From: Lentimicrobium sp.
GTDB lineage: Bacteria > Bacteroidota > Bacteroidia > Bacteroidales > Lentimicrobiaceae
Direction of reading: 5' to 3'
Assembly: GCA_024709105.1 (NCBI GenBank)
Contig: JANJXJ010000095.1
Span: 1 to 38,637 of the forward strand
DNA: 38,637 nucleotides
The notes under the pieces are model-generated. The model had not been told where the DNA came from. It searched no databases and saw only the letters and a list, made by a program, of their open reading frames with translations. This document shows, piece by piece, positions 291 to 32,049 of the stretch; positions within the stretch are counted from its first letter, which is position 1; every line of letters begins with the position of its first letter. Position numbers and translations under genes: made by a program.

Positions 291-2633
291 ATGGCAAAAT
301 TGAGGGTAATTGCAGTTTTTTTGATGCTGGGCATGCTTGGCTTGCCGGTGATGAGGTTGTATGCACAAACCTACGACACCATTTCAAATTGGGAAAATAT
401 CACACCCAACTGGGTGGTTTGGGCCGGGCCGGGTCAGGTTACTGATAATCCTGCTCCGGGGGCGGTAAATCCTTCGGCACATTGTATTCAGCTTACAACC
501 AATTCCAACCCCTACAACCTGATGTTGCTGGATATGGAAGCCCCTGCCGATTTCGACCGCTACCCCCGCTACAGCCTGCTTGTGCTTGCGCCTGCAACAG
601 GCGGCGATGTGGTGCTTAAATTTGAAAACAGCGACAATACTTCTTCACGCGAATTGTTGCTTACCCCGCAGCCCGGGCAATGGACACGGCTTGAATTTGA
701 TTTCTCGGGTCAGACTTACGAAAATTATACCCGCATGGTAATCTTCTTCGACTTCCTCGGAACCAACCCCGATCGCCTTTGGTACATTGATGATGTGGTG
801 AAAGAAATTCCTGAGCCGGTGACTTTTTCTTCAACCATGCCTATTGTGGTGATCAACACCAACGGAGTGGATATTCCCAATGAGCCCAAAATTCCCGGAA
901 CCATGGGAATTATTTACAATGGCCCCGGCAATCTGAACAGTACCAGCGATCCGTTTAATCATTATAACGGGGACATTGGCATAGAAATAAGGGGGCAATC
1001 ATCGCAGATGTTTCCAAAAAAATCTTACTCCTTTGAAACCCGCACTCCTCAGGGAGACAACAATAACGTTGCCCTGCTGGGAATGCCTAAGGAAAACGAC
1101 TGGGTTTTGTATGCTCCTTACACCGACAAATCCATGTTGCGCAATGCAGTAACTTTTGGCATCGGGCATAAAATGGATGGATACTGCACCCGCACCCGCT
1201 TTGTCGAAGTAATTGTAAATACCGATTACAAAGGTATTTACGTGTTGATGGAACGGATCAAAAGAGACAAAAACAGAGTTAATATTGAAGAGCTTACACC
1301 GTCAATAACTACATTGCCGGGCCTCTCGGGAGGGTATATTGTTCGTGTGGATAAAATGGATCCCGACTTTACTTTAGGAACAGATGGCTGGTTATCAGAG
1401 GTTTATCCGGTTTATAATTATGCAAATCGCTCTGTTTTCCAGTATTATTATCCAAAAGCCGATGAAATTGTTCCTGAACAACGCAATTATATCAAACAAT
1501 TCATCACTTCGGCCGAAGTGGCACTCAACAGCAGCCGGTTTAAAGAGCCCGGCTTTGGATATATGAAATATTTCGATCTGCCTTCTTTTGTGGATTTTAT
1601 GCTGCTGAACGAAATCAGCAAAGAGGTGGATAAGTATAAATTCAGTACTTATTTTTTTAAGGAAAATGACAATCAGGGAGGGAAACTGTTTGCCGGCCCC
1701 GCATGGGATTTTAATCTGGGTTATGGAAATGTGGACTACTGGCCTCCGGGTTTAAGTACTTCCGGCTGGATGTATTCATCCGTGAAGAATGAGTCGTTGA
1801 TGATGTACTGGTGGCAAAGGCTGATGGAGGACAACTATTTCAGAGACCTTGCCAAAACCCGCTGGCTGAGCTTGCGGCAAAACCTTATTACCAACGCTTT
1901 TGTGGAACAACTTGTGGATTCCCTTATCAGCGAATTGTCTCCCTCGCTTGAACGCAATTATGAAAGGTGGCCCATACTTGGGCAATACGTATGGCCAAAT
2001 TACGACTGGCAAAACAATACCTATGAGGATGAAACCGATTATTTCAGGAATTTTCTATTCACCAGACTGCAGTGGATGGATAACAATATGCCCGGAAATG
2101 CTCTTCGGCCCTGGGCTGCCATCAGTTCGTCAGCAAACAAAATAACCCTGACTCTGTATGGCGATTATTTCAGGCGGAACATCATTTCAAAAGAAAGTTT
2201 TACGCTGAATGGTGCACCGGATTTTGTAAAAATTCAGGGGGTGGAATACAAAGGCCCTGCTTCCTGCGAAATTACTCTTACTACCGATGCTTCTGCACAT
2301 CAGAATCTTTCGGTAGTGATTGCAGACCGGCTGCTCAATACACTCACTCCGCTCGAAAGCAATAAACTTGCATCGGTGGGAATGCCCGAAGCAAACCCTG
2401 AATCAAGCAAAGTAACTGTGGGTTATTTTGATCATGCACTGGTGATACGCAGATCCGGAACAGGCATTTCCGGAAAAGGAATACTTCGGGATATGTCAGG
2501 GCGGAAGGTTAGCGAAATTTTAATATCAGGAGGCGAGGTGCAGACCATTCCGCTTTCGCTGAGCCCGGGCGTTTATATCTACTCCGAAGCAGGAAAATCA
2601 GGGTGGATTTCGGTTAAGATGGTGGTTCTCTGA
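291..2633 (+). CDS. Secreted CotH kinase-family protein with T9SS-like C-terminus
   Basis: The protein is 780 residues from ATG 291. A signal peptide spans residues 1 to about 26 and ends in LYAQ. Residues ~30-175 look like a beta-rich carbohydrate-binding-like domain. From ~185 to ~600 it carries CotH family hallmarks: GQSSQMFPKKSY near 235-247 (lysines expected to bind ATP), DKSMLRN, LMERIKRDKNRV near 318-329, GGYIVRVDK, and AGPAWDFNLGYGN near 468-480 with the presumed metal-binding Asp. CotH proteins are atypical secreted kinases, known from Bacillus spore coats. The last ~70 residues resemble a T9SS sorting domain (GKGILRDMSGRKV, then SPGVYIY and KMVVL), without a clear PNP opening. It is probably exported to the surface or outside. 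The substrate is unknown. Confidence 0.85.
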   Translation: MAKLRVIAVFLMLGMLGLPVMRLYAQTYDTISNWENITPNWVVWAGPGQVTDNPAPGAVNPSAHCIQLTTNSNPYNLMLLDMEAPADFDRYPRYSLLVLAPATGGDVVLKFENSDNTSSRELLLTPQPGQWTRLEFDFSGQTYENYTRMVIFFDFLGTNPDRLWYIDDVVKEIPEPVTFSSTMPIVVINTNGVDIPNEPKIPGTMGIIYNGPGNLNSTSDPFNHYNGDIGIEIRGQSSQMFPKKSYSFETRTPQGDNNNVALLGMPKENDWVLYAPYTDKSMLRNAVTFGIGHKMDGYCTRTRFVEVIVNTDYKGIYVLMERIKRDKNRVNIEELTPSITTLPGLSGGYIVRVDKMDPDFTLGTDGWLSEVYPVYNYANRSVFQYYYPKADEIVPEQRNYIKQFITSAEVALNSSRFKEPGFGYMKYFDLPSFVDFMLLNEISKEVDKYKFSTYFFKENDNQGGKLFAGPAWDFNLGYGNVDYWPPGLSTSGWMYSSVKNESLMMYWWQRLMEDNYFRDLAKTRWLSLRQNLITNAFVEQLVDSLISELSPSLERNYERWPILGQYVWPNYDWQNNTYEDETDYFRNFLFTRLQWMDNNMPGNALRPWAAISSSANKITLTLYGDYFRRNIISKESFTLNGAPDFVKIQGVEYKGPASCEITLTTDASAHQNLSVVIADRLLNTLTPLESNKLASVGMPEANPESSKVTVGYFDHALVIRRSGTGISGKGILRDMSGRKVSEILISGGEVQTIPLSLSPGVYIYSEAGKSGWISVKMVVL

Positions 2634-17392: not shown

Positions 17393-19555
17393 ATGAAAAG
17401 ATTTTCTTTACTAATTGTTGCACTTGTCTTGTCATTCCGCCTCAGTTTTGCTGTGGAAGGGATGTGGTTGCCCATCCTGCTGGAACAGCTGAACGAACCC
17501 GAAATGAAAAGTATGGGCATGCGTATCAGTGCCGAAGATATTTACAGCATAAACAAATCGAGTCTCAAAGATGCAATCTTGCTTTTTGGCCGGGGTTGTA
17601 CTGCCGAAATTATTTCGGATGAGGGATTAATCCTGACCAACCACCATTGCGGTTATGGACAGATTCAGCGTCACAGCTCACTCGAAAACGATTACCTGAC
17701 CAATGGATTCTGGGCAATGGACAGAAGTCAGGAACTCCCGAATCCTGGATTGAGCGTAACACTGCTCATCCGCATGGAAGATGTTACCAAAAGGGTATTG
17801 CAGGGCGTTGAATCAGGAATGACTGAGCAGCAGCGTGAGCAAAAAATCAAAGCAAATATTGCAGTTCTTGAAAAGGAAGCGACTTCAGGTAATAAATACG
17901 GCGCAAGAGTCAGGCCTTTTTATTACGGAAACGAGTATTACCTGTTTGTTACCCAAACTTTTAACGATGTCAGGCTGGTAGGAGCACCTCCTTCAAACAT
18001 CGGCAAATTTGGCGGCGATACTGATAACTGGATGTGGCCCAGACACACCGGAGATTTTTCATTGTTCAGGATTTATGTTAACAAAGACAATGAGCCGGCT
18101 GAATATTCGGCTGATAATGTTCCCTACAAGCCCAAACATCATTTGCCGGTTTCCCTGAAAGGCGCCGAAAAAGGCGATTTTACCTTTGTTTTCGGTTATC
18201 CCGGAACCACACAGGAGTATCTTCCTTCTTTTGCAGTGGAAATGATCACGGCTCATGAAAACCCGCCGGCCATCCGCCTCAGAGGCAAACGCCTCAGTAT
18301 TTTTGACAGCTATATGCAACAAAGTGACCTTGTGCGTATTCAGTATTCGGCCAAACATGCGGGTGTTGCAAATTTCTGGAAGAAAATGATCGGCGAAAAC
18401 AGAGGAATCAAGCGTTTGGATGCCGTTGAAAAAAAACAGGCACTGGAAGCGGAATTTATAAAATGGGCTGCCGCTGATCCCGAAAGAAACAAACTGTATG
18501 GCAGACTTATTCCTGAGTTTGAGAAATTATACGGTGAATTTACCGCTCTCAATGTTGATGAAACCTATCTTATTGAAGCCGGACTGAGCATTGAAGTAAT
18601 GCGATTTGCCTACTCTTTCGGCCAGCTGGCTGCGTTAAGCCAAAAAAAGGATGCATCTCCCGAAGAACTTGAAAAATTACTTGCCCGGCAGAAATCTGCC
18701 ATGGAAGGGCATTTCAAAAATTATCACAAACCACTGGATCAAAAGGTGTTTGCCGAAATGATGAGTGATTGGTTCGGGCACGGTGATGCAGTTAATATTC
18801 CTGCAGGATTACAGACCGCATTGGCAAAATATGACGGAAATTACGAAGCATGGGCCGAAGATGTTTTTAAGAAAACCATTTTTGCAGATGAAGCCCGGCT
18901 GACTCTGTTTTTGAATAAATACAAAAAGTCAGGGTATAAGACCATACTTAAAGATCCGGCTTTTATTTTAGCTTCTGCCATTTACAGCCATTATTTCGAT
19001 AAAATTCAGAAAGATATCGAAAAACTAACAGTTCGTCGCGACAGCCTTCAGCGGGTATATATGACTGGTCTTATGGCATTTCAGCCCGATCGCAGGTTTT
19101 ATCCCGATGCCAATTCTACATTACGGGTAAGTTATGGACAAGTTGATGATTATTTTCCACGCGATGCTGTTCACTATCGTCATTATACTACCCTGGAAGG
19201 TATAATGGAAAAAGAAGATCCGGATATCTACGACTATGTTGTTGAGCCCCGGCTCAAAGAATTGTATCAGGCTAAGGATTATGGCCGTTATGCCGCAGCC
19301 GACGGAACCATGCGCATTGCATTTATTGCCAGCAATCATACTACCGGCGGAAACTCAGGAAGCCCTGTACTTAATGCCGACGGACATCTGATTGGAGTTA
19401 ACTTCGATCGCAACTGGGAAGGTACCATGAGTGATCTGATGTACGATCCTGATCAGTGCCGGAACATCAGCCTTGATATAAGGTATTGTTTGTTTGTCAT
19501 TGATAAAATGGCAGGTGCCGGTCATCTGGTGAAAGAGATGACTATTATTGAATAA
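17393..19555 (+). CDS. S46 family dipeptidyl peptidase, DPP11-like
   Basis: The protein is 720 residues, with a signal peptide at 1-20 ending in SFA. Family S46 is a periplasmic serine exopeptidase family of Bacteroidota that releases dipeptides. Catalytic residues visible: H85 in LTNHHCGYG, an Asp in the GGDTDNWMWPRHTGDF block (208-222, probably D221) and S655 in GGNSGSPV. R673 in GVNFDRNWEGTMSD occupies the position that, in Porphyromonas DPP11, is Arg and reads acidic P1 residues (Asp/Glu); DPP7 has Gly there. It therefore probably cleaves after Asp or Glu. It supplies dipeptides from extracellular protein breakdown. It ends at a strong bidirectional terminator. Confidence 0.93.
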   Translation: MKRFSLLIVALVLSFRLSFAVEGMWLPILLEQLNEPEMKSMGMRISAEDIYSINKSSLKDAILLFGRGCTAEIISDEGLILTNHHCGYGQIQRHSSLENDYLTNGFWAMDRSQELPNPGLSVTLLIRMEDVTKRVLQGVESGMTEQQREQKIKANIAVLEKEATSGNKYGARVRPFYYGNEYYLFVTQTFNDVRLVGAPPSNIGKFGGDTDNWMWPRHTGDFSLFRIYVNKDNEPAEYSADNVPYKPKHHLPVSLKGAEKGDFTFVFGYPGTTQEYLPSFAVEMITAHENPPAIRLRGKRLSIFDSYMQQSDLVRIQYSAKHAGVANFWKKMIGENRGIKRLDAVEKKQALEAEFIKWAAADPERNKLYGRLIPEFEKLYGEFTALNVDETYLIEAGLSIEVMRFAYSFGQLAALSQKKDASPEELEKLLARQKSAMEGHFKNYHKPLDQKVFAEMMSDWFGHGDAVNIPAGLQTALAKYDGNYEAWAEDVFKKTIFADEARLTLFLNKYKKSGYKTILKDPAFILASAIYSHYFDKIQKDIEKLTVRRDSLQRVYMTGLMAFQPDRRFYPDANSTLRVSYGQVDDYFPRDAVHYRHYTTLEGIMEKEDPDIYDYVVEPRLKELYQAKDYGRYAAADGTMRIAFIASNHTTGGNSGSPVLNADGHLIGVNFDRNWEGTMSDLMYDPDQCRNISLDIRYCLFVIDKMAGAGHLVKEMTIIE

Positions 19556-19572: not shown

Positions 19573-19616
19573 AAAAATTTATCCCTTCAATTCCGGAATT
19601 GAAGGGATAAATTTTT
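19573..19616. terminator. Bidirectional terminator, perfect 44-bp palindrome
   Basis: The arms 19573-19594 and 19595-19616 are exact reverse complements, 22 bp each without spacer; the hairpin core is AATTCCGGAATT. T-rich runs lie at both outer edges, so it can stop transcription of the plus-strand S46 gene (stop 19555) and the minus-strand regulator (stop 19637). Confidence 0.85.
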
Positions 19617-19636: not shown

Positions 19637-21022
19637 TTACTTGTCTTCGGCTTTTCTCCTTTTCTTGCCTGAAGTAGCCCTTAAACCATACTTGTCAATT
19701 TTTGCATTCAGGGTAGGGCGGGTAATGTCAAGGATTCTGGATGCTTCCAGTTTATTCCAGTTGAGTCTGTCCAATACTTTCTGAATATGGACTTTTTCAA
19801 TGGCTGCAATAGGAATAAGAATTTTATCATCAGATTCAGCCTGGTCTTTGTCGTTATTGGTGTTTAATACTAAGTGCTCCTTTTCAAGCACATCGCTGCG
19901 GGTCATAATCATGGCCTGCATCAGTGTATTTTCCAGTTCTCTGACGTTGCCAGGCCAGGAATGGTAATTCAGCATCTCCAGCACTCCGTCGCCAATCTTG
20001 ACAATACGCTTGTTGAGTTTTCGGTTCAGCTTCTGTACCAGATGTTTCACCAGTTCATCTATATCGTCTTTGCGGCTGCGCAGCGGCGGCAGGGCAATGG
20101 TAAACACCTTGAGCCGGTAATACAGTTCTTCTCTGAATTTTCCGGCTCTAACCAGCGCTTCCAGATCTTTGCTGGTGGAGGCAATAATTCGGGCGGTGAG
20201 AGGAATGGGTGCAGGAGCACCGGGTTTTTCGATTTCCATTTCCTGTATTACCCTCAATAACCGGGTTTGCATGGCTTCGCTCAGGTCAGCAATATCGTCA
20301 AGGAAAATGGTGCCTTCTGCTGCCTGTTCAAATTTGCCTTTGCGACCGGTCTGAGCATTTGGGAAAGCCCCCGCTTCATAACCGAAAAGCTCATTTTCGA
20401 GAACTGTTTCGTTCAGCGCTGAGCAGTTTACAACCACCATAGGGTGTTCACGGGTTACACCGCTGAAGTGTATCAGCCTTGCAATCAGCTCTTTGCCTGT
20501 TCCGGTTTCGCCGGTAATCAAAACATTCACCTTGTTGATGGAGATTCTTCCAACATTCTTGAAAATCTCACGCATCACCGGTGTTTTGCCTACCAACTGG
20601 TTCTCTTCAATTACTTTACGAATTTCAGGGGTGATGGTTTCGGTAAGCGATTGACTTTGCCTGCTGATTTCAAGCCCGTTTTTGATGATTTCAAGTACTT
20701 CCTGAATCTGAATTGGCTTTTCAATAAAATCGTAAGCTCCAACCTGTATGGATTTGATGGTAAGTGCAACATCTCCGTGCGCTGTAAGCAGGATTACAGG
20801 AAGACCCGGCTGGGTTTTCTTAAGTTCTGTAATTACATCCAGCCCCGATATGCCAGGCATCTGATAATCAGTAATTACGATATCAGGCTTCTCTTCAGCA
20901 GCTTTTGCAAGCCCTGTTTCTCCATCCGAAGCTGTAATCACGTCGTATCCGGCTTTGCTCAGGCTGTTTGAAAGCAGCGTTCTGATGATGGAATCATCGT
21001 CAATGGCCAGTATCTTGCTCAT
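19637..21022 (-). CDS. NtrC-family response regulator with altered sigma-54 contact loop
   Basis: The protein is 461 residues. The receiver domain (1-115) has acidic D8-D10, phospho-acceptor D52, T80 and K102. The AAA+ domain (about 143-385) has Walker A GETGTGKE (171-178), Walker B FLDDIAD (240-246) and NVRELEN (359-365). The sigma-54-contacting GAFTGA loop reads GAFPNA (218-223), and Walker B has Asp in place of the usual Glu (FLDE). A FIS-type helix-turn-helix is at about 408-447 (NKLEASRILDITRPTLNAKI), followed by a basic tail. It would control genes by phosphorylation-driven remodelling of sigma-54 polymerase, or might act without sigma-54 given the altered loop. No histidine kinase is adjacent. 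Confidence 0.9.
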   Translation of the reverse strand: MSKILAIDDDSIIRTLLSNSLSKAGYDVITASDGETGLAKAAEEKPDIVITDYQMPGISGLDVITELKKTQPGLPVILLTAHGDVALTIKSIQVGAYDFIEKPIQIQEVLEIIKNGLEISRQSQSLTETITPEIRKVIEENQLVGKTPVMREIFKNVGRISINKVNVLITGETGTGKELIARLIHFSGVTREHPMVVVNCSALNETVLENELFGYEAGAFPNAQTGRKGKFEQAAEGTIFLDDIADLSEAMQTRLLRVIQEMEIEKPGAPAPIPLTARIIASTSKDLEALVRAGKFREELYYRLKVFTIALPPLRSRKDDIDELVKHLVQKLNRKLNKRIVKIGDGVLEMLNYHSWPGNVRELENTLMQAMIMTRSDVLEKEHLVLNTNNDKDQAESDDKILIPIAAIEKVHIQKVLDRLNWNKLEASRILDITRPTLNAKIDKYGLRATSGKKRRKAEDK

Positions 21023-25848: not shown

Positions 25849-27117
25849 ATGATTTTTCTTCAAATCGGAACAGGTATTAAGGAATGGCTTACGGGTCAGG
25901 GATTTTCGCATGGTTTTGCCAGTGGCTTTTCTGAGGTTACTGATTTTTTAATTGCACTGGCTTTTATAACAGCCATTTATTACATACTTAAAACGGTTGT
26001 GCTCGCGCTGGTAAGAAAACTTACCCGAAAATCAAGCACAACCTGGGACGATGCACTGTACCACAGTCGTTTCTTTCACAAAGTTTTATTACTTGTGCCC
26101 GGCGTTTTGCTAGGATTTGCAGCTCCGTTTACCTTAGATGAATTTCCCGGGGCACTTAACCGGGTACTTCAGTTTACTCAGATTTATCTGGTTTTTGTAA
26201 GTCTTTTGTCGGTAAATGCTTTTCTGAATGCCATTTATGAGATTTACCAGGGCTTTGAGGTGTCAAAATCAAAACCTATCAAAGGCTATCTGCAGGTTTT
26301 TAAGATTGTTTTGTTTGTTTTCGGAACAATCATAGCCATTTCAATGCTGTTGGGCAAATCTCCGGTGTATCTTCTCGGAGGTTTGGGCGCTTTTTCAGCC
26401 ATTTTACTTTTGATCTTTAAAGATCCAATTCTCGGGCTGGTGGGTGGAATTCAACTATCGGCCAACGATATGGTTCGACCCGGAGATTGGATTGTTCAGC
26501 AGAAATCGGGCGCCGACGGAGTTGTAACCGAAATTTCACTTACTACCGTTAAAGTTCAGAACTGGGATAAAACCATTACCACTGTACCTACCTATTCTTT
26601 GGTTTCTGAAAGCTTCACCAACTGGCGGGGCATGGAAGAGTCTGGCGGCAGACGCATCAAACGGTCAGTTTTTATTGATGTGAACAGTGTTAAATTCTGT
26701 TCGCAGGAAATGATTGACCGTTTCAGGAAAATTAATCTGGTTAGTGATTATGTTGAACAAAAAGAATCGGAACTGGCAGAATACAATAAGTCCAACAATG
26801 TTGACAATTCAGTTCTTGTTAATGGCCGTCGCCAAACCAACCTGGGTGTTTTCAGAGCCTACCTGATGGCATATCTGCGCAGCAATCCCAACATCCGGCA
26901 GGATATGACCTTTCTGGTTCGTCAACTTCAGCCGGGCGAAAGCGGAATACCCATGGAAATTTATGTATTCAGCAAGGTGCAGGAATGGGCCAGTTACGAA
27001 AATATTCAGTCTGATATCTTTGATCATGTACTTGCCGCAGTCCCTGAATTTGAACTTCAGGTTTTTCAGAATCCTTCGGGTGCCGATTTCAGGCGGCTTG
27101 GATTCCCGGTTTCCTGA
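25849..27117 (+). CDS. MscS-family mechanosensitive channel, YbdG-like
   Basis: The protein is 422 residues from ATG 25849 (an open frame extends to 25822, but the ATG one base after the upstream stop is the natural start). About five hydrophobic segments lead into the pore helix region LLGGLGAFSAILLLIFKD and the MscS beta domain (GDWIVQQKSGADGVVTEIS, then TTVPTYSLVSESFTNWRGM and SGGRRIKRS). The NWRGMEESGGRRIKRS stretch is characteristic of the YbdG/MscM subgroup, about 415 residues in E. coli. It likely opens on membrane tension to release osmolytes. Its last 29 bases overlap the 3' end of the opposing crtY gene. Confidence 0.88.
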   Translation: MIFLQIGTGIKEWLTGQGFSHGFASGFSEVTDFLIALAFITAIYYILKTVVLALVRKLTRKSSTTWDDALYHSRFFHKVLLLVPGVLLGFAAPFTLDEFPGALNRVLQFTQIYLVFVSLLSVNAFLNAIYEIYQGFEVSKSKPIKGYLQVFKIVLFVFGTIIAISMLLGKSPVYLLGGLGAFSAILLLIFKDPILGLVGGIQLSANDMVRPGDWIVQQKSGADGVVTEISLTTVKVQNWDKTITTVPTYSLVSESFTNWRGMEESGGRRIKRSVFIDVNSVKFCSQEMIDRFRKINLVSDYVEQKESELAEYNKSNNVDNSVLVNGRRQTNLGVFRAYLMAYLRSNPNIRQDMTFLVRQLQPGESGIPMEIYVFSKVQEWASYENIQSDIFDHVLAAVPEFELQVFQNPSGADFRRLGFPVS

Positions 27118-27802
27118 TTTTATTATCCCTGCTCCTCAGCCACTCATATATGGTGGTATTCATCAACAGCATAAACAGGCCGTAAACAGTGTCTTCTATG
27201 GGTATGGTGCCTAAGCGTATGCCCAGATTGCGAGTATCGTCATACCAAACCACCGGCTCGGCCGAAAACATGCCTGTAAGTGCACCGTTAACAATAAAAA
27301 ACGGGATCAGGGTAACAAAATACATTACATAAAATCTTCCCAGATAAGGCGCTTTGATTACGAAAAGGTGCAGGGTAAGAAATACAGCCACCAGCAGAAA
27401 GGTGATAAATGTATACCATCTGTCGGGGTTAAGCACTGCCACAACTAATAAAACCACGATCAGTGCGGCGGTGAATGGCCGGGCAAATTTACCCAGGTAA
27501 TCTTTTTTGATAAGGTACTCAAATGCATGGTATGTAAACAGGCAGGCATACGGTATGGCTATAAAGAAAAGCCATTCCTCAACCGGAAGATTTGAAATAT
27601 ACCAGCCCTGCAGGTGGTCGGGGTTAAATCCCCATACCCCGAGTTTGGTTTTTAAAATATCCCAGGGGATAAAAACCAGCATGGTTGCCAGCATTGCCGG
27701 GAAAAGATATTTCCAGTTGTTGTAAAACTTGAGTCGCTTGTCGAACCCGGCAATAAATGGTATGGAAATCGAAAGCAGATTAATCCAGAAATAATACGAC
27801 AC
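27089..27802 (-). CDS. crtY: Lycopene cyclase, fused CrtYc-CrtYd type
   Basis: The protein is 237 residues with about seven transmembrane segments and starts with GTG at 27802, three bases after the crtZ stop. It consists of two homologous cyclase halves. The first carries FIPWDILKTKLGVWGFNP (44-61) and LPVEEWLFF (71-79). The second carries NGALTG, VVWYDD and IPIEDTVYGL near 180-210. The paired Pro-x-E-E/D motifs are the proposed active sites. It cyclises both ends of lycopene to beta-carotene in the membrane. Actinobacteria split the two halves (crtYc, crtYd); the fusion is usual in Bacteroidota. It is last in the crt operon and overlaps the mechanosensitive channel gene tail to tail. Confidence 0.9.
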   Translation of the reverse strand: MSYYFWINLLSISIPFIAGFDKRLKFYNNWKYLFPAMLATMLVFIPWDILKTKLGVWGFNPDHLQGWYISNLPVEEWLFFIAIPYACLFTYHAFEYLIKKDYLGKFARPFTAALIVVLLVVAVLNPDRWYTFITFLLVAVFLTLHLFVIKAPYLGRFYVMYFVTLIPFFIVNGALTGMFSAEPVVWYDDTRNLGIRLGTIPIEDTVYGLFMLLMNTTIYEWLRSRDNKIRKPGIQAA

Positions 27803-27805
27803 AGC

Positions 27806-28282
27806 CTACCCTTTCTGTGCCTTTCGGGCACGGTTTTTCGTAAATTCCTCGATGTAATATTTCATAGGGGCTATCAAAAATCCGTAGTTGTAATGTGCAT
27901 GCGGATTGTGGTGTTCCAGATGTGCTTTTACTGTTGCCCTGAGATAACGGTTCGAGAAATTCCTGAGTATGGGTATGCGCTGATGTACATATACATCGTG
28001 GAACATAAAATAGGCAAATCCATAAAGGAAAATGCCGATTCCGAAACTCAGCATATAACTGTTGGGATTTACTACCCCAAAATAGATAAGCAGTATGCTT
28101 GGAATGGCAAAAATCACCGCAAAAACGTCGTTCCACTCAATTTTTCTACCATCGCGCACATGATGGTCTTTGTGAAGTACCCACAAAAATCCGTGCATTA
28201 CGTATTTATGGGTAAACCAGGCCATAAATTCCATGAAGAAAAAGGCCAGAATTACAAGCAAGATGTTGAATATTAATTCCAT
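27806..28282 (-). CDS. crtZ: Beta-carotene hydroxylase
   Basis: The protein is 158 residues, a di-iron membrane hydroxylase of the fatty acid hydroxylase superfamily. Its four His motifs are complete: H25-x4-H30, H37-x2-HH (HKDHH, 37-41), H95-x4-H100 (HDVYVH) and H121-x2-HH (HLEHH, 121-125). It hydroxylates the 3 and 3' positions of beta-ionone rings, giving zeaxanthin. It ends three bases before crtY. It is separated from idi by 77 bases holding a GGGGA/TCCCC hairpin, so a second mRNA species could begin or be processed there. Confidence 0.93.
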   Translation of the reverse strand: MELIFNILLVILAFFFMEFMAWFTHKYVMHGFLWVLHKDHHVRDGRKIEWNDVFAVIFAIPSILLIYFGVVNPNSYMLSFGIGIFLYGFAYFMFHDVYVHQRIPILRNFSNRYLRATVKAHLEHHNPHAHYNYGFLIAPMKYYIEEFTKNRARKAQKG

Positions 28283-28359: not shown

Positions 28360-28893
28360 TTAACTTTTTTTAAGTTCCCTGTTCAGGTAATACTCTGCAA
28401 CTCTTTCAAATGCAATCTGAAACCAAACAGTAAACAGTTCCGGATTCTCAGCCATTTCAACGGAAATGTCGTCAAGCGTGGCGAAGCGATAGGATTCTAC
28501 TTCTTCGGGGTTAATCACAGGCAGTGTATCGCTGAATCCGACAAATACATGATCTACTTCGTGCTCGGTGAGGTTATTGTCGAAAGGTGCTATGTAGGTG
28601 AAATGAAATATTTTGGTCAGGGTACAATCAAAACCCATTTCTTCCTGAAGTCTCCGGTGTGCTGCGGCTTCGGTTTCTTCTCCCGGCCTGGGGTGACTGC
28701 AGCAGGTATTTGTCCATAAACCCGGTGAGTGGTATTTGCCCAATGCCCTTTGCTGAAGCATAAGTTCGCCTTTACTGTTGAATACAAATACCGAAAATGC
28801 CCGGTGCAGCAATGCTTCGCGGTGTGCCTGAATTTTTTCCATTACTCCGGTTTCCCGGTCATCTTGGTCAACTAAGATTACTAGTTCTTCCAT
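28360..28893 (-). CDS. idi: Isopentenyl-diphosphate delta-isomerase, type I
   Basis: The protein is 177 residues of the Nudix-fold type I enzyme, close to the 182 of E. coli Idi. Visible catalytic elements: LLHRAFSVFVF (28-38) with a metal His, the active Cys region LWTNTCCSHPRPGEE (59-73; C65 aligns with E. coli C67), the Nudix-like AAAHRRLQEEMGF (76-88) and NLTEHEVDHVF (107-117) with the catalytic Glu. It interconverts IPP and DMAPP and so supplies the allylic primer for GGPP, the carotenoid precursor. It follows the secreted unknown gene by two bases in the crt operon, so translational coupling is likely. Confidence 0.95.
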   Translation of the reverse strand: MEELVILVDQDDRETGVMEKIQAHREALLHRAFSVFVFNSKGELMLQQRALGKYHSPGLWTNTCCSHPRPGEETEAAAHRRLQEEMGFDCTLTKIFHFTYIAPFDNNLTEHEVDHVFVGFSDTLPVINPEEVESYRFATLDDISVEMAENPELFTVWFQIAFERVAEYYLNRELKKS

Positions 28894-28895
28894 AG

Positions 28896-29414
28896 TTAGT
28901 TGGAGAGTGTTTTTAATCCGGCTTTTTCATTGGCAGTAAGTTGTTCGGAGTCAAGCATAAATGCTGCAATGCGTTTGGCAGTTTGCTCGTTTCCTTTTAT
29001 GTTTCTGAATGCCGGCAAGTGAGTGAGAATAAATTTTTTGTCTTCGTTCAGGTGGGTGTTGTATCCCAGAAATGCAGGTGCCTTGCTCTGTGTTGCAAAT
29101 CTCAGAAATCTGATTTCCAGATTGTAAGGTGAGTTTTGTGCTGCATTGTCAAGCAATTGTTTTCCCTTGCGGAAATTAGCAATTTTTCGTGCAGGATTGG
29201 AAACACAGGCAGGCGAAGCAGCTGTTGAGGCTCCATAATATGCGTTTAGCAGTGGATCTTTAGGCGGTTGCTCATCAAACAAATTGCTTAATTTGAGCGA
29301 ATTGCACTGGTCTTTGTCCATGCTGAAATACATTTCGCGGGCTGTATTCAGGTCAACCTGTGCCTGAGCGACAAAAGTTCCGAGTAAAAGAAAAATTATT
29401 ATTTTTATTCTCAT
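28896..29414 (-). CDS. Secreted protein of unknown function in the carotenoid operon
   Basis: The protein is 172 residues with a signal peptide, MRIKIIIFLLLGTFVAQA, and likely cleavage before Q19. The mature protein is helical in character (RKGKQLLDNAAQNSPYNLEIRFLRFATQ) and has two cysteines, C37 and C70, that could form a disulfide in the periplasm. Helix pairs around 80-115 are loosely TPR-like, but no family was recognised. It sits between crtB (3-base gap) and idi (2-base gap), so it is almost certainly co-translated with the carotenoid enzymes. That placement suggests a role in handling, sensing or delivering the pigment at the envelope; this is inference from position only. Confidence 0.8.
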   Translation of the reverse strand: MRIKIIIFLLLGTFVAQAQVDLNTAREMYFSMDKDQCNSLKLSNLFDEQPPKDPLLNAYYGASTAASPACVSNPARKIANFRKGKQLLDNAAQNSPYNLEIRFLRFATQSKAPAFLGYNTHLNEDKKFILTHLPAFRNIKGNEQTAKRIAAFMLDSEQLTANEKAGLKTLSN

Positions 29415-29417
29415 GGG

Positions 29418-30254
29418 TTAAAGCAGGTTGAGCTGATGTTTTAAGTAGGATGTAAACAGCAGTTTGTATTTGGTGCGATTGGGAATACGTATTCTTTCCT
29501 GCATAATCTGCGAAGAACGGGTACTTCTGATTTTCAGGAAAAGTTTATGGAAATAAACATAAGCCATGTATACACCAAATCTTGCACCTTTGGGGAGATT
29601 TCTAATGCCTTCGAGGCCATTGGCAAAATCAATAGCTATATCGTCTTCAATTTTTTGCTTGGTCTCTTCATTGAATTTACTCAGGTCAACACCAGGGAAA
29701 TAAGACCTCCCGAGATCTTTGTAATCGGCTTTCAGGTCGCGCAGGAAGTTTATTTTCTGGAAAGCACTGCCCAGGCGCATGGCCGGATATTTTAGTTCCT
29801 GATATTTTTTGTCATCACCTTCGCAAAAAACTCTCAGGCACATCAGTCCAACTACTTCGGCCGAGCCCAGTATGTATTCCTCAAAGGCAGGCTGGTCGTA
29901 GGTGATGTCGCGAAGGTCCATCTCCATGCTGTTCAGGAATTTATCTATCAGTTCCCACTCAATATTGTATTTATTCACCGCCCATTGAAAATTATTGAGG
30001 ATTGGGTTTAGGCTGATTCCTTCATCAATGGCTAAGCGGGTGTCGTTGCGGAAACGTTGCAGCAGTTTGGCTTTGTCAAACCCATGAAATGAATCTACGA
30101 TTTCATCAGCAAACCTTACAAAACCATAGATTGCATAAATGGGGTCATGGTATTTGCGACTGAAAAAACGTATTCCCAGTGAGAATGAAGTAGAGTAAGT
30201 GACTGTGGCCAGTTTACTCGATTTCTTCGATATCATGTCAAATAAGTCTTTCAT
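29418..30254 (-). CDS. crtB: Phytoene synthase (squalene/phytoene synthase family)
   Basis: The protein is 278 residues. The first Asp-rich motif is DEIVD (50-54) and the second is NFLRDLKADYKDLGRSYFP (169-187) with N169, R172, D173, D177 and G182-R183, all in place for Mg-diphosphate binding. STSFSLGIRFF (21-31) is the usual N-terminal signature. It condenses two GGPP to phytoene, the first committed step. It starts eight bases after crtI. A C30 dehydrosqualene synthase (CrtM) is the alternative, but the C40 enzymes downstream (CrtZ, CrtYcd) favour CrtB. Confidence 0.93.
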   Translation of the reverse strand: MKDLFDMISKKSSKLATVTYSTSFSLGIRFFSRKYHDPIYAIYGFVRFADEIVDSFHGFDKAKLLQRFRNDTRLAIDEGISLNPILNNFQWAVNKYNIEWELIDKFLNSMEMDLRDITYDQPAFEEYILGSAEVVGLMCLRVFCEGDDKKYQELKYPAMRLGSAFQKINFLRDLKADYKDLGRSYFPGVDLSKFNEETKQKIEDDIAIDFANGLEGIRNLPKGARFGVYMAYVYFHKLFLKIRSTRSSQIMQERIRIPNRTKYKLLFTSYLKHQLNLL

Positions 30255-30262
30255 AGTGCCGG

Positions 30263-31735
30263 TTAGTTTAGTTTAATGATTTCGCGGGCAGCAATTTGTC
30301 CCGAGATAATAGCCGGAGGTACTCCCGGGCCGGGAACGGTAAGCTGTCCTGCATATAACAAATTTTTAACCTTTGGGTTTCGCATTTTGGGTTTGAGAAA
30401 CGCAGTTTGCATCAGCGTATTGGCCAGGCCATAAGCATTTCCCTTGTATGCATTGTAGTCTTTTTCAAAATCGGCATGGGCATAGCTGCGTTCAAAAACC
30501 AGATGTTCTCGCAGCTGCTGTCCGGTATAACGTTCCATACGCGCAATGGCCATGTCAAGATATTTCTTTCTCGTTTCAGCAGTGTCTTCCAATCCGGGAG
30601 CAACCGGAATAAGAACCATTACATTTTCATGGCCTTCGGGCGCAACGGTGGAGTCGGTGCGTGAAGTACAACTCAGATAAACCGAGGGTTTTTCAGGCCA
30701 GTGAGGATTTTTGTAAATAGAATCGGCATGGCCTGCAAAATCTTCGTCGAACAACAAGGTGTGATGGTCGAGTTTGGGAATTCTGGTGTTGAATCCCAGG
30801 TAAAATATCAGGCTCGAAGGCGACAATACTCTTGAATTCCAGTACTTTTCATCGTAATTCCGGTAAGCTTCAGGCAAAAGATGCTGTTCCACATGATGAT
30901 AATCAGCCGAAGCAATTACATAATCGGCTTCGTATTCAATTCCGCCTGCAGTTACTGATTTTAGCTTGTTCCCTGCAATGTTCAGGGCTGTTACCGGTGA
31001 GTCATAAATAAATTCTGCACCTTTTTCCTTTGCCAGACTTTCCATAGCTTCAACTACCGAATACATACCCTTCTCGGGATACCACGTGCCCTGAACCATA
31101 TCGCTGTAATTCATCAGGCTGTAGAGCGCAGGCGTTGTTTTGGCTGTTCCGCCCAGAAAAAGCACCGGAAATTCCAGCATTCGGTTGATTTTTTCGCTCT
31201 TGAAGAACTTGCGGGTGTAAGCCCCGAAAGAACTGAGCATATTCAGCCTGATTCCGGCTGCAAATATTTTCCAGTGGAGGTATTCTGTTATCGAATGGCT
31301 GGGCTTCTGAACAAACTCACCTATCCCGATACGGTACTTGTATTCAGATTCTGTCAGAAACCTTTTGAGCCCGGTTGAACTACCAGGTTCTATTTGTTCA
31401 TAAAGTTTGTATATATCGTCGAGTTCTGAAGGAAGTACCACCTCATCTCCTGGACCAAAGTAAATTTTGTAGGATGGGTTGATTCGGTGAAGTCTGTAAT
31501 AGTCCGAAACCTTTTTGCCAAATGAAGCGAAGTAATTCTCAAAAATATCGGGCATCCAGTACCAGCTGGGCCCCATGTCGAAAGTAAACCCCTCTGATGT
31601 AAATTTCCTGGCCCTTCCTCCCGGAATTGAATTTTTTTCAAGCACCTTAACGGTATACCCGGCATCAGCAAGGGTAGCTGCTGCTGCAAGTCCGGAAAAT
31701 CCTGCTCCTATAACAATAATACTTTTTGAAGACAT
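30263..31735 (-). CDS. crtI: Phytoene desaturase (CrtI type)
   Basis: The protein is 490 residues, the normal length. The N-terminal Rossmann motif IGAGFSGLAAAATLADAG (9-26) and VLEKNSIPGGRAR (31-43) bind FAD. The C-terminal signature NLLYAGQLTVPGPGVPPAIISG is typical of the CrtI/CrtN group. It inserts four double bonds into phytoene to give all-trans lycopene, working at the membrane. It is the first gene of the operon. A 37-bp palindrome lies about 65-100 bases upstream of its ATG and probably binds its regulator. Isorenieratene- or CrtN-type alternatives are less likely in this gene set. Confidence 0.93.
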   Translation of the reverse strand: MSSKSIIVIGAGFSGLAAAATLADAGYTVKVLEKNSIPGGRARKFTSEGFTFDMGPSWYWMPDIFENYFASFGKKVSDYYRLHRINPSYKIYFGPGDEVVLPSELDDIYKLYEQIEPGSSTGLKRFLTESEYKYRIGIGEFVQKPSHSITEYLHWKIFAAGIRLNMLSSFGAYTRKFFKSEKINRMLEFPVLFLGGTAKTTPALYSLMNYSDMVQGTWYPEKGMYSVVEAMESLAKEKGAEFIYDSPVTALNIAGNKLKSVTAGGIEYEADYVIASADYHHVEQHLLPEAYRNYDEKYWNSRVLSPSSLIFYLGFNTRIPKLDHHTLLFDEDFAGHADSIYKNPHWPEKPSVYLSCTSRTDSTVAPEGHENVMVLIPVAPGLEDTAETRKKYLDMAIARMERYTGQQLREHLVFERSYAHADFEKDYNAYKGNAYGLANTLMQTAFLKPKMRNPKVKNLLYAGQLTVPGPGVPPAIISGQIAAREIIKLN

Positions 31736-31799
31736 AGTCTGTTTTGTTCAGTTTTAGCGTGCTTCTTAGTGCACAACTTTAATAACAAGAGTGGTGCAG

Positions 31800-31836
31800 T
31801 TTTGTTTAATTAATGCTTGGCATAAATTAAACAAAA
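31800..31836. promoter_or_regulatory. 37-bp palindrome upstream of crtI, candidate operator
   Basis: Left arm TTTTGTTTAATTAATGC (31800-31816), spacer TTG, right arm 31820-31836; the arms are complementary at 16 of 17 positions. The right-arm half-site AAACAAA (31829-31835) is repeated at 31840-31846, exactly 11 bp or one helical turn further out. The palindrome begins 18 bases upstream of the weak crtI -7 box, so a bound protein would cover the -33 region. Confidence 0.6.
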
Positions 31837-32041
31837 TGTAAACAAACAATTTTTAGGTTGATTGCTGATAATTTTCTAGGCAGGATTTTTCCTGGAGATA
31901 AATGATAATATATTAATTATCAACTTGTTTGCCAGTGTTTCTTCTGATTTTGTGCTGATATCCTGGAAAAAAAATCAAAAAAAGTGATTGTTAAAGAATT
32001 CATAAAGTTTGGTTAAAATAAGAATAGAATCAGTTAATTCT

Positions 32042-32049
32042 TAGCTTTG
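32042..32049 (+). promoter_or_regulatory. Bacteroidetes -7 box for the RND efflux operon
   Basis: TAGCTTTG (TAnnTTTG), identical to the box at 256. The predicted start of transcription is near 32056, which lies inside the longest frame opening at 32047 and so supports ATG 32125 as the real start. Confidence 0.5.

Follow-up and report, generated by a model that had tools for sequence, protein, structure and literature searches.

A palindrome upstream of the carotenoid genes of a Lentimicrobium species is probably one copy of a conserved operator for a CarH/LitR-type repressor

The carotenoid (crt) operon of Lentimicrobium sp. lies on the minus strand just downstream of a conspicuous palindrome, which raises the question of what this element does and which protein would bind it. 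It is contained in a stretch of 38,637 nucleotides (assembly GCA_024709105.1, contig JANJXJ010000095.1), referred to below as the window. The closest named records to the crtI gene of the window come from Lentimicrobium sp. and from Bacteroidales MAGs. The operon is made up as follows:

30263 to 31735, minus strand: crtI-type phytoene desaturase (NF058655 CrtID, 705.7 bits)
29418 to 30254, minus strand: crtB-type phytoene/squalene synthase (PF00494)
28896 to 29414, minus strand: ORF of 172 aa within the operon, with no Pfam or NCBIfam match
28360 to 28893, minus strand: isopentenyl-diphosphate isomerase (NF002995)
27806 to 28282, minus strand: fatty-acid-hydroxylase-family protein in a crtZ-type position (PF04116)
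27089 to 27802, minus strand: lycopene cyclase (PF18916 / TIGR03462)

A preliminary description had reported a near-perfect 37-bp palindrome here, and its geometry was confirmed. Two 17-nt arms (31800-31816 and 31820-31836) are 94% complementary, with a single mismatch and a 3-nt loop, and the heptamer AAACAAA occurs both at 31829-31835 and at 31840-31846, an offset of exactly 11 bp. An inverted repeat of this grade (17-nt arms, at most one mismatch, loop no longer than 8 nt) was found in 0/60 dinucleotide shuffles of the whole window and in 1/3000 when the 311 nt upstream of crtI (31736-32046, GC 0.28) were shuffled. The sole other repeat in the window to pass this threshold is a perfect hairpin at 19574-19615, between ORFs on the plus (17393-19555) and minus (19637-21022) strands; it is probably a transcription terminator.

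Alignment of the crtI upstream regions of related species separated the palindrome into two parts: its outer arms are kept in 15 congeners, but its inner bases and the 11-bp repeat are not. All 15 other species of the genus whose assembly includes a readable crtI upstream stretch carry TGTTTA-N18/19-TAAACA or a one-base variant, in the form GTTTA (GTCTA in 2), 18 or 19 bases, and TAAAC (TTAAC in 2), located 79-131 bp from the start codon. The inner 19 bp form 7 of 9 possible pairs in the species of the window, a pairing that is not conserved in relatives; over 64 orthologous or regulon sites, inner-base complementarity was 0.35 vs. 0.33 expected from composition. A second half-site 11 bp beyond the dyad was present at 2 of these 64 sites, with no copy on the other outer side and one on the inner side. 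Since neither the inner bases nor the 11-bp half-site is conserved, the conserved unit in these alignments is a gapped dyad, and the extended palindrome and phased repeat are additions particular to this species. Outside this order, the dyad was absent from all 74 crtI loci searched, most of which belong to other orders of Bacteroidota. A role as an RNA hairpin is unlikely, given the short A/U-rich arms and the 18-nt loop. The elements of the site are the following:

31803 to 31833, minus strand: conserved dyad TGTTTA-N19-TAAACA, core of 31800-31836 and proposed operator (conservation at crtI, spacer enrichment)
31803 to 31808, minus strand: right arm TAAACA (crtI strand), a half-site whose AAC is also the proposed crtI -35 (AAC-N16-xGTTW, 12/12)
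31828 to 31833, minus strand: left arm TGTTTA (crtI strand), a half-site that lacks an evident promoter function at crtI
31781 to 31788, minus strand: TTGTTATT, proposed -10 of an ECF-type crtI promoter (conserved in congeners)
31839 to 31844, plus strand: further TAAACA, offset outwards from the dyad by 11 bp and not conserved in relatives

The dyad proved to be widespread in the genome. In counts that rest on pattern searches, TGTTTA-N18/19-TAAACA occurs at 15 places in the genome of the window, vs. 4 for the reversed control, and the N18 form was found 127 times over the genus, vs. 14 for its control. When the spacer was varied from 3 to 33 bases (with TGTTTAA as the left word), lengths 18 and 19 together gave 14 places and no other length was comparable. 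The 17-bp arm, which the preliminary description had suggested as a search motif, was of little use: its 3-mismatch matches (44+27 vs. 25+19 in the control) are mostly due to chance, and an additional pair on C183 falls within coding sequence resembling glgB.

Nearly all dyads in this genome are intergenic and stand before genes; those inside genes (e.g. an ABC-F-like gene at L116 and the gene of L129/L213) were treated as chance. They are found before crtI and the ECF sigma gene beside carH, and before genes for a fasciclin protein, YceI, a cobalamin adenosyltransferase, a short-chain dehydrogenase, an antiporter-like protein and a TonB-type outer-membrane protein. Other copies stand before PTPS, behind which lies a folE-like ORF recognised by reading, before a peroxiredoxin gene divergent from recA, and before the gene for a secreted protein that has a DoxX-like neighbour. 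Orthologous sites were found in the sampled genomes, that of the window included, for PTPS (8), the secreted protein (8), the sigma gene (7), fasciclin (7), peroxiredoxin (6), the TonB-type protein (6), adenosyltransferase (4) and the antiporter (4). A gene cluster at L222-L224 that bears the dyad, with genes for a large secreted protein and for DoxX-like, SRPBCC-like and EamA-like proteins (the last two called by reading only), is also conserved in the genus. Many copies in unrelated intergenic positions had been named beforehand as grounds for discarding the operator idea; copies are indeed many, but they mark a coherent and orthologously conserved gene set. The dyad is thus predicted to be a real, conserved operator, and the palindrome to be the crt copy of a DNA switch that recurs about a dozen times in this bacterium.

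Examination of the surrounding bases revealed two nearly exclusive arrangements of dyad and promoter. ECF sigma promoters typically have an AAC-containing -35 at N16 spacing. In class 1, xGTTW stands 14-16 bases past the right arm TAAACA, which yields AAC-N16-xGTTWA; this was seen at 12/12 crtI sites with exact arms, 4/4 antiporter, 5/7 fasciclin and 4/8 secreted protein sites. At crtI, a TGTTWA-like element 14-15 nt past the right arm is conserved in congeners. In class 2, an AAC precedes the left arm at a single fixed offset to form AAC-N16-TGTTTA, with no other offset comparably enriched (PTPS 8/8, adenosyltransferase 4/4, TonB-type 6/6 and peroxiredoxin 5/6, or 23/24 in all). An AAC at -35 distance upstream of the left arm was found at 0/12 crtI sites, and a downstream xGTTW at 1/24 class 2 right arms. 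Neither class accommodates the YceI sites, some of the DUF4397 sites or several of the single-copy sites. One dyad arm would therefore double as an ECF-type promoter element, the -35 in the crtI class and the -10 in the PTPS/adenosyltransferase class. In these main classes the dyad thus covers one promoter element, and its second arm lacks an evident part in the promoter, as would be expected of an operator.

The same element also precedes other genes. AAC-N16/17-xGTTW precedes carH in 18/18 members of the genus and in 3/6 others (a match at -264 in G055 was excluded), and the photolyase gene in the genome of the window, examined after the rule was set, is preceded by GAAC-N16-TGTTTA. AAC-N16-xGTTW, a putative promoter element, is thus common to crtI, carH, photolyase and the regulon genes. 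The photolyase promoter (L228, about 1985-2037, minus strand) has no clear right dyad arm. The motif TAnnTTTG, the Bacteroidota -7 box, which also appears in published work, lies inside the dyad at 5/7 sigma-gene sites, unlike the 12 crtI dyads, where it is absent. One arm of the palindrome, which the preliminary description had placed over the -33 region of crtI, coincides with the proposed crtI -35; a housekeeping -33/-7 promoter inside the crtI dyad was rejected.

Which protein might bind these sites? The preliminary description had expected a CarH/LitR-type MerR gene outside the window, and we located one at C165:20752-21663, beside an ECF sigma gene. It is one of two MerR-family genes in this genome at the cut-off used, and its product of 304 aa combines MerR and B12-binding domains. 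The CarH-like gene at L002:823-1737 (minus strand) matches PF13411, PF02607 and, weakly, PF02310. The NCBIfam CarH equivalog model scored 94.3 bits, far below its cut-off of 400. A profile search of the PDB with the CarH-like family retrieved CarH structures (E 1.4e-20), and the predicted fold (mean pLDDT 85.4) gave 5c8e and 5c8d as top Foldseek matches.

CarH homologues are defined by the Wx9EH and ExHxxG motifs (PMC8156234). The adenosyl-capping motif Wx9EH is present in 19/20 aligned CarH-like proteins, including that of G000. The B12 motif ExHx2Gx41SxV/Tx22-27GG can be followed in the G000 protein through E196-W-H198-E-L-G201 and, at x41, S243-I-T245, to a final GG that reads TG (272-273), i.e. 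it departs at a single residue. The residue after the capping Trp is Gln in 20/20 aligned proteins of the order (residue 150 in L002:823-1737), vs. His132 in Thermus. His132 is the light-state ligand of Thermus CarH and is important for break-up of the tetramer (PMC10442372), but it is not among the motifs that define CarH (PMC8156234). The substitution therefore weakens the claim for a light step rather than that for CarH membership; found in all 20 proteins, it suggests that the light switch of a Gln-bearing CarH may work differently. The TAAACA of both dyad arms fits the published CarH half-site, TnnACA (PMC9304148).

We next considered whether dyads and CarH occur together. In the genome of the window, carH adjoins the ECF sigma gene, an arrangement that recurs in many other families of this order; three genomes (G003, G007 and G008) have a second, close ECF sigma paralogue (83-84% identity) at another locus. 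In 9 families beyond the genus, perfect dyads sit next to carH, most often in front of the sigma gene; some genomes there carry the dyad upstream of carH itself, as does G018 within the genus. Outside the genus, the ratio of dyads to controls was 76:39 in 34 genomes with CarH vs. 78:111 in 66 genomes without (Fisher p 3e-5; label permutation p 1e-4), and crtI co-occurred with CarH in 10/12 vs. 4/29 cases (p 5e-5), although these p-values are somewhat generous because genomes of one order are related. No CarH was detected in two members of the order, G099 (dyad to control 6:0) and G100 (5:0). Dyads without a detected carH or sigma gene were also seen in G014, whose assembly is 83% complete. In G047, which has crtI without CarH, the right arm and the -10 are kept and the left arm is lost, a single case, but one that would be expected if the left arm serves CarH alone.

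Taken together, the palindrome is probably the crt copy of a regulon-wide TGTTTA-N18/19-TAAACA operator, bound by the CarH/LitR-type repressor encoded at C165:20752-21663 and overlapping the promoters of its partner ECF sigma factor. The dyad could instead be a genuine operator of another transcription factor that shares targets with CarH and the sigma factor, for instance an oxidative-stress regulator. The 24-bp distance between equivalent half-sites, which matches no published CarH operator that we found, would fit such a factor, as would the dyads of G099 and G100; we nevertheless consider it rather unlikely, since dyad enrichment tracks the presence of CarH, the dyad adjoins carH in nine further families, and one of the targets is cobalamin adenosyltransferase, the enzyme that produces the CarH chromophore.

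TAAACA and TGTTTA are reverse complements of each other and each could serve as a promoter element, so that dyads might also arise from tandem or divergent ECF promoters, as -35 and -10 boxes with no repressor involved. This is very improbable, as only one arm per site has a promoter partner (0/12 for crtI left arms, 1/24 for class 2 right arms), and both arms and the 18-19 base spacer are conserved nonetheless. Tandem 11-bp direct repeats, the published type of CarH operator and the one proposed in the preliminary description, are suggested at this locus by TAAACA at 31828 and 31839, exactly 11 bp apart, an arrangement shared by one congener (L050). The rarity of the phased copy over the 64 sites (2 on the outer side, 0 on the other, 1 on the inner) makes this scarcely credible, and we rejected it. 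The phasing thus fails as a CarH-like hallmark, and the reasoning built on it with it; the class of regulator named there, CarH/LitR, was probably right.

Our best reading of the dyad is a LitR/LitS-like light circuit of the Bacteroidota that uses an inverted dyad in place of tandem 11-bp repeats, for which we infer the binder and the parts played by B12 and light. We propose a circuit based on repression because of the analogy with Streptomyces LitR/LitS and Pseudomonas class II LitR. In the dark, CarH loaded with AdoCbl would occupy the dyads, presumably as a repressor, which would silence the housekeeping promoter of the sigma gene and obstruct RNA polymerase at sigma-dependent promoters. 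Light would break the Co-C bond and CarH would leave the DNA. The sigma factor could then be made and would transcribe the crt, antioxidant, pterin, DNA-repair and B12-adenosylation genes, together with carH, by which repression would be restored afterwards. By this analogy, a B12-based light sensor and its partner sigma factor most likely turn on pigment, antioxidant and related genes together. More tentatively, this may be a distinct Bacteroidota B12 circuit, with a Gln-bearing CarH, dyad arms that serve as sigma -35 or -10, competition between repressor and sigma factor for the same six bases, and a B12-adenosylating enzyme among the targets; we regard this as quite possible, without leaning towards it.

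CarH/LitR operators have been described in Thermus, Bacillus, myxobacteria, Streptomyces and Pseudomonas; the literature searched yielded no CarH operator or regulon from the Bacteroidota. What emerges from the present analysis is a motif exact enough to test, together with a signature for promoters of the partner sigma factor and, in the group related to Lentimicrobium, a regulon comprising about a dozen operons. A repressor half-site with the sequence of a sigma promoter element, as predicted here, would be a compact way to tie a regulon to both proteins. The Gln-for-His change is relevant to how a B12 light switch can operate if no bis-His state is available to it.

In Streptomyces coelicolor, the B12-dependent MerR protein LitR and the ECF sigma factor LitS, which drives the crt genes (PMC12705666), are a close parallel: a MerR-B12 gene lies beside an ECF sigma gene, LitR acts on the sigma gene promoter and the sigma factor directs crt, as we propose by analogy for Lentimicrobium. 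Unlike in S. coelicolor, the carH-sigma pair is unlinked to crt here, the proposed operator is also found on sigma-dependent promoters, and carH has a sigma-type promoter of its own upstream. The CarH proteins of Thermus thermophilus, Bacillus megaterium and Myxococcales (PMC9304148, PMC8156234) share the fold, the Wx9EH and ExHxxG motifs, the TnnACA half-site and a site overlapping the -35 of a crt promoter; their operators, however, are tandem 11-bp repeats rather than one inverted dyad with an 18-19 bp spacer, and the light-state ligand, His132 in Thermus, is replaced by Gln. The Pseudomonas class II LitR proteins PplR/PmlR recognise TGTACA-N12-TGTACA and control a regulon that includes photolyase, FolE and a short-chain dehydrogenase (PMC9758184). 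A LitR-family repressor is likewise proposed here, and similar genes recur, as do spaced half-sites located over the -35 or between the start site and the start codon, whereas the Pseudomonas spacer is 12 rather than 18-19 bases, the promoters are of the sigma70 type and light is sensed through a LOV protein rather than B12.
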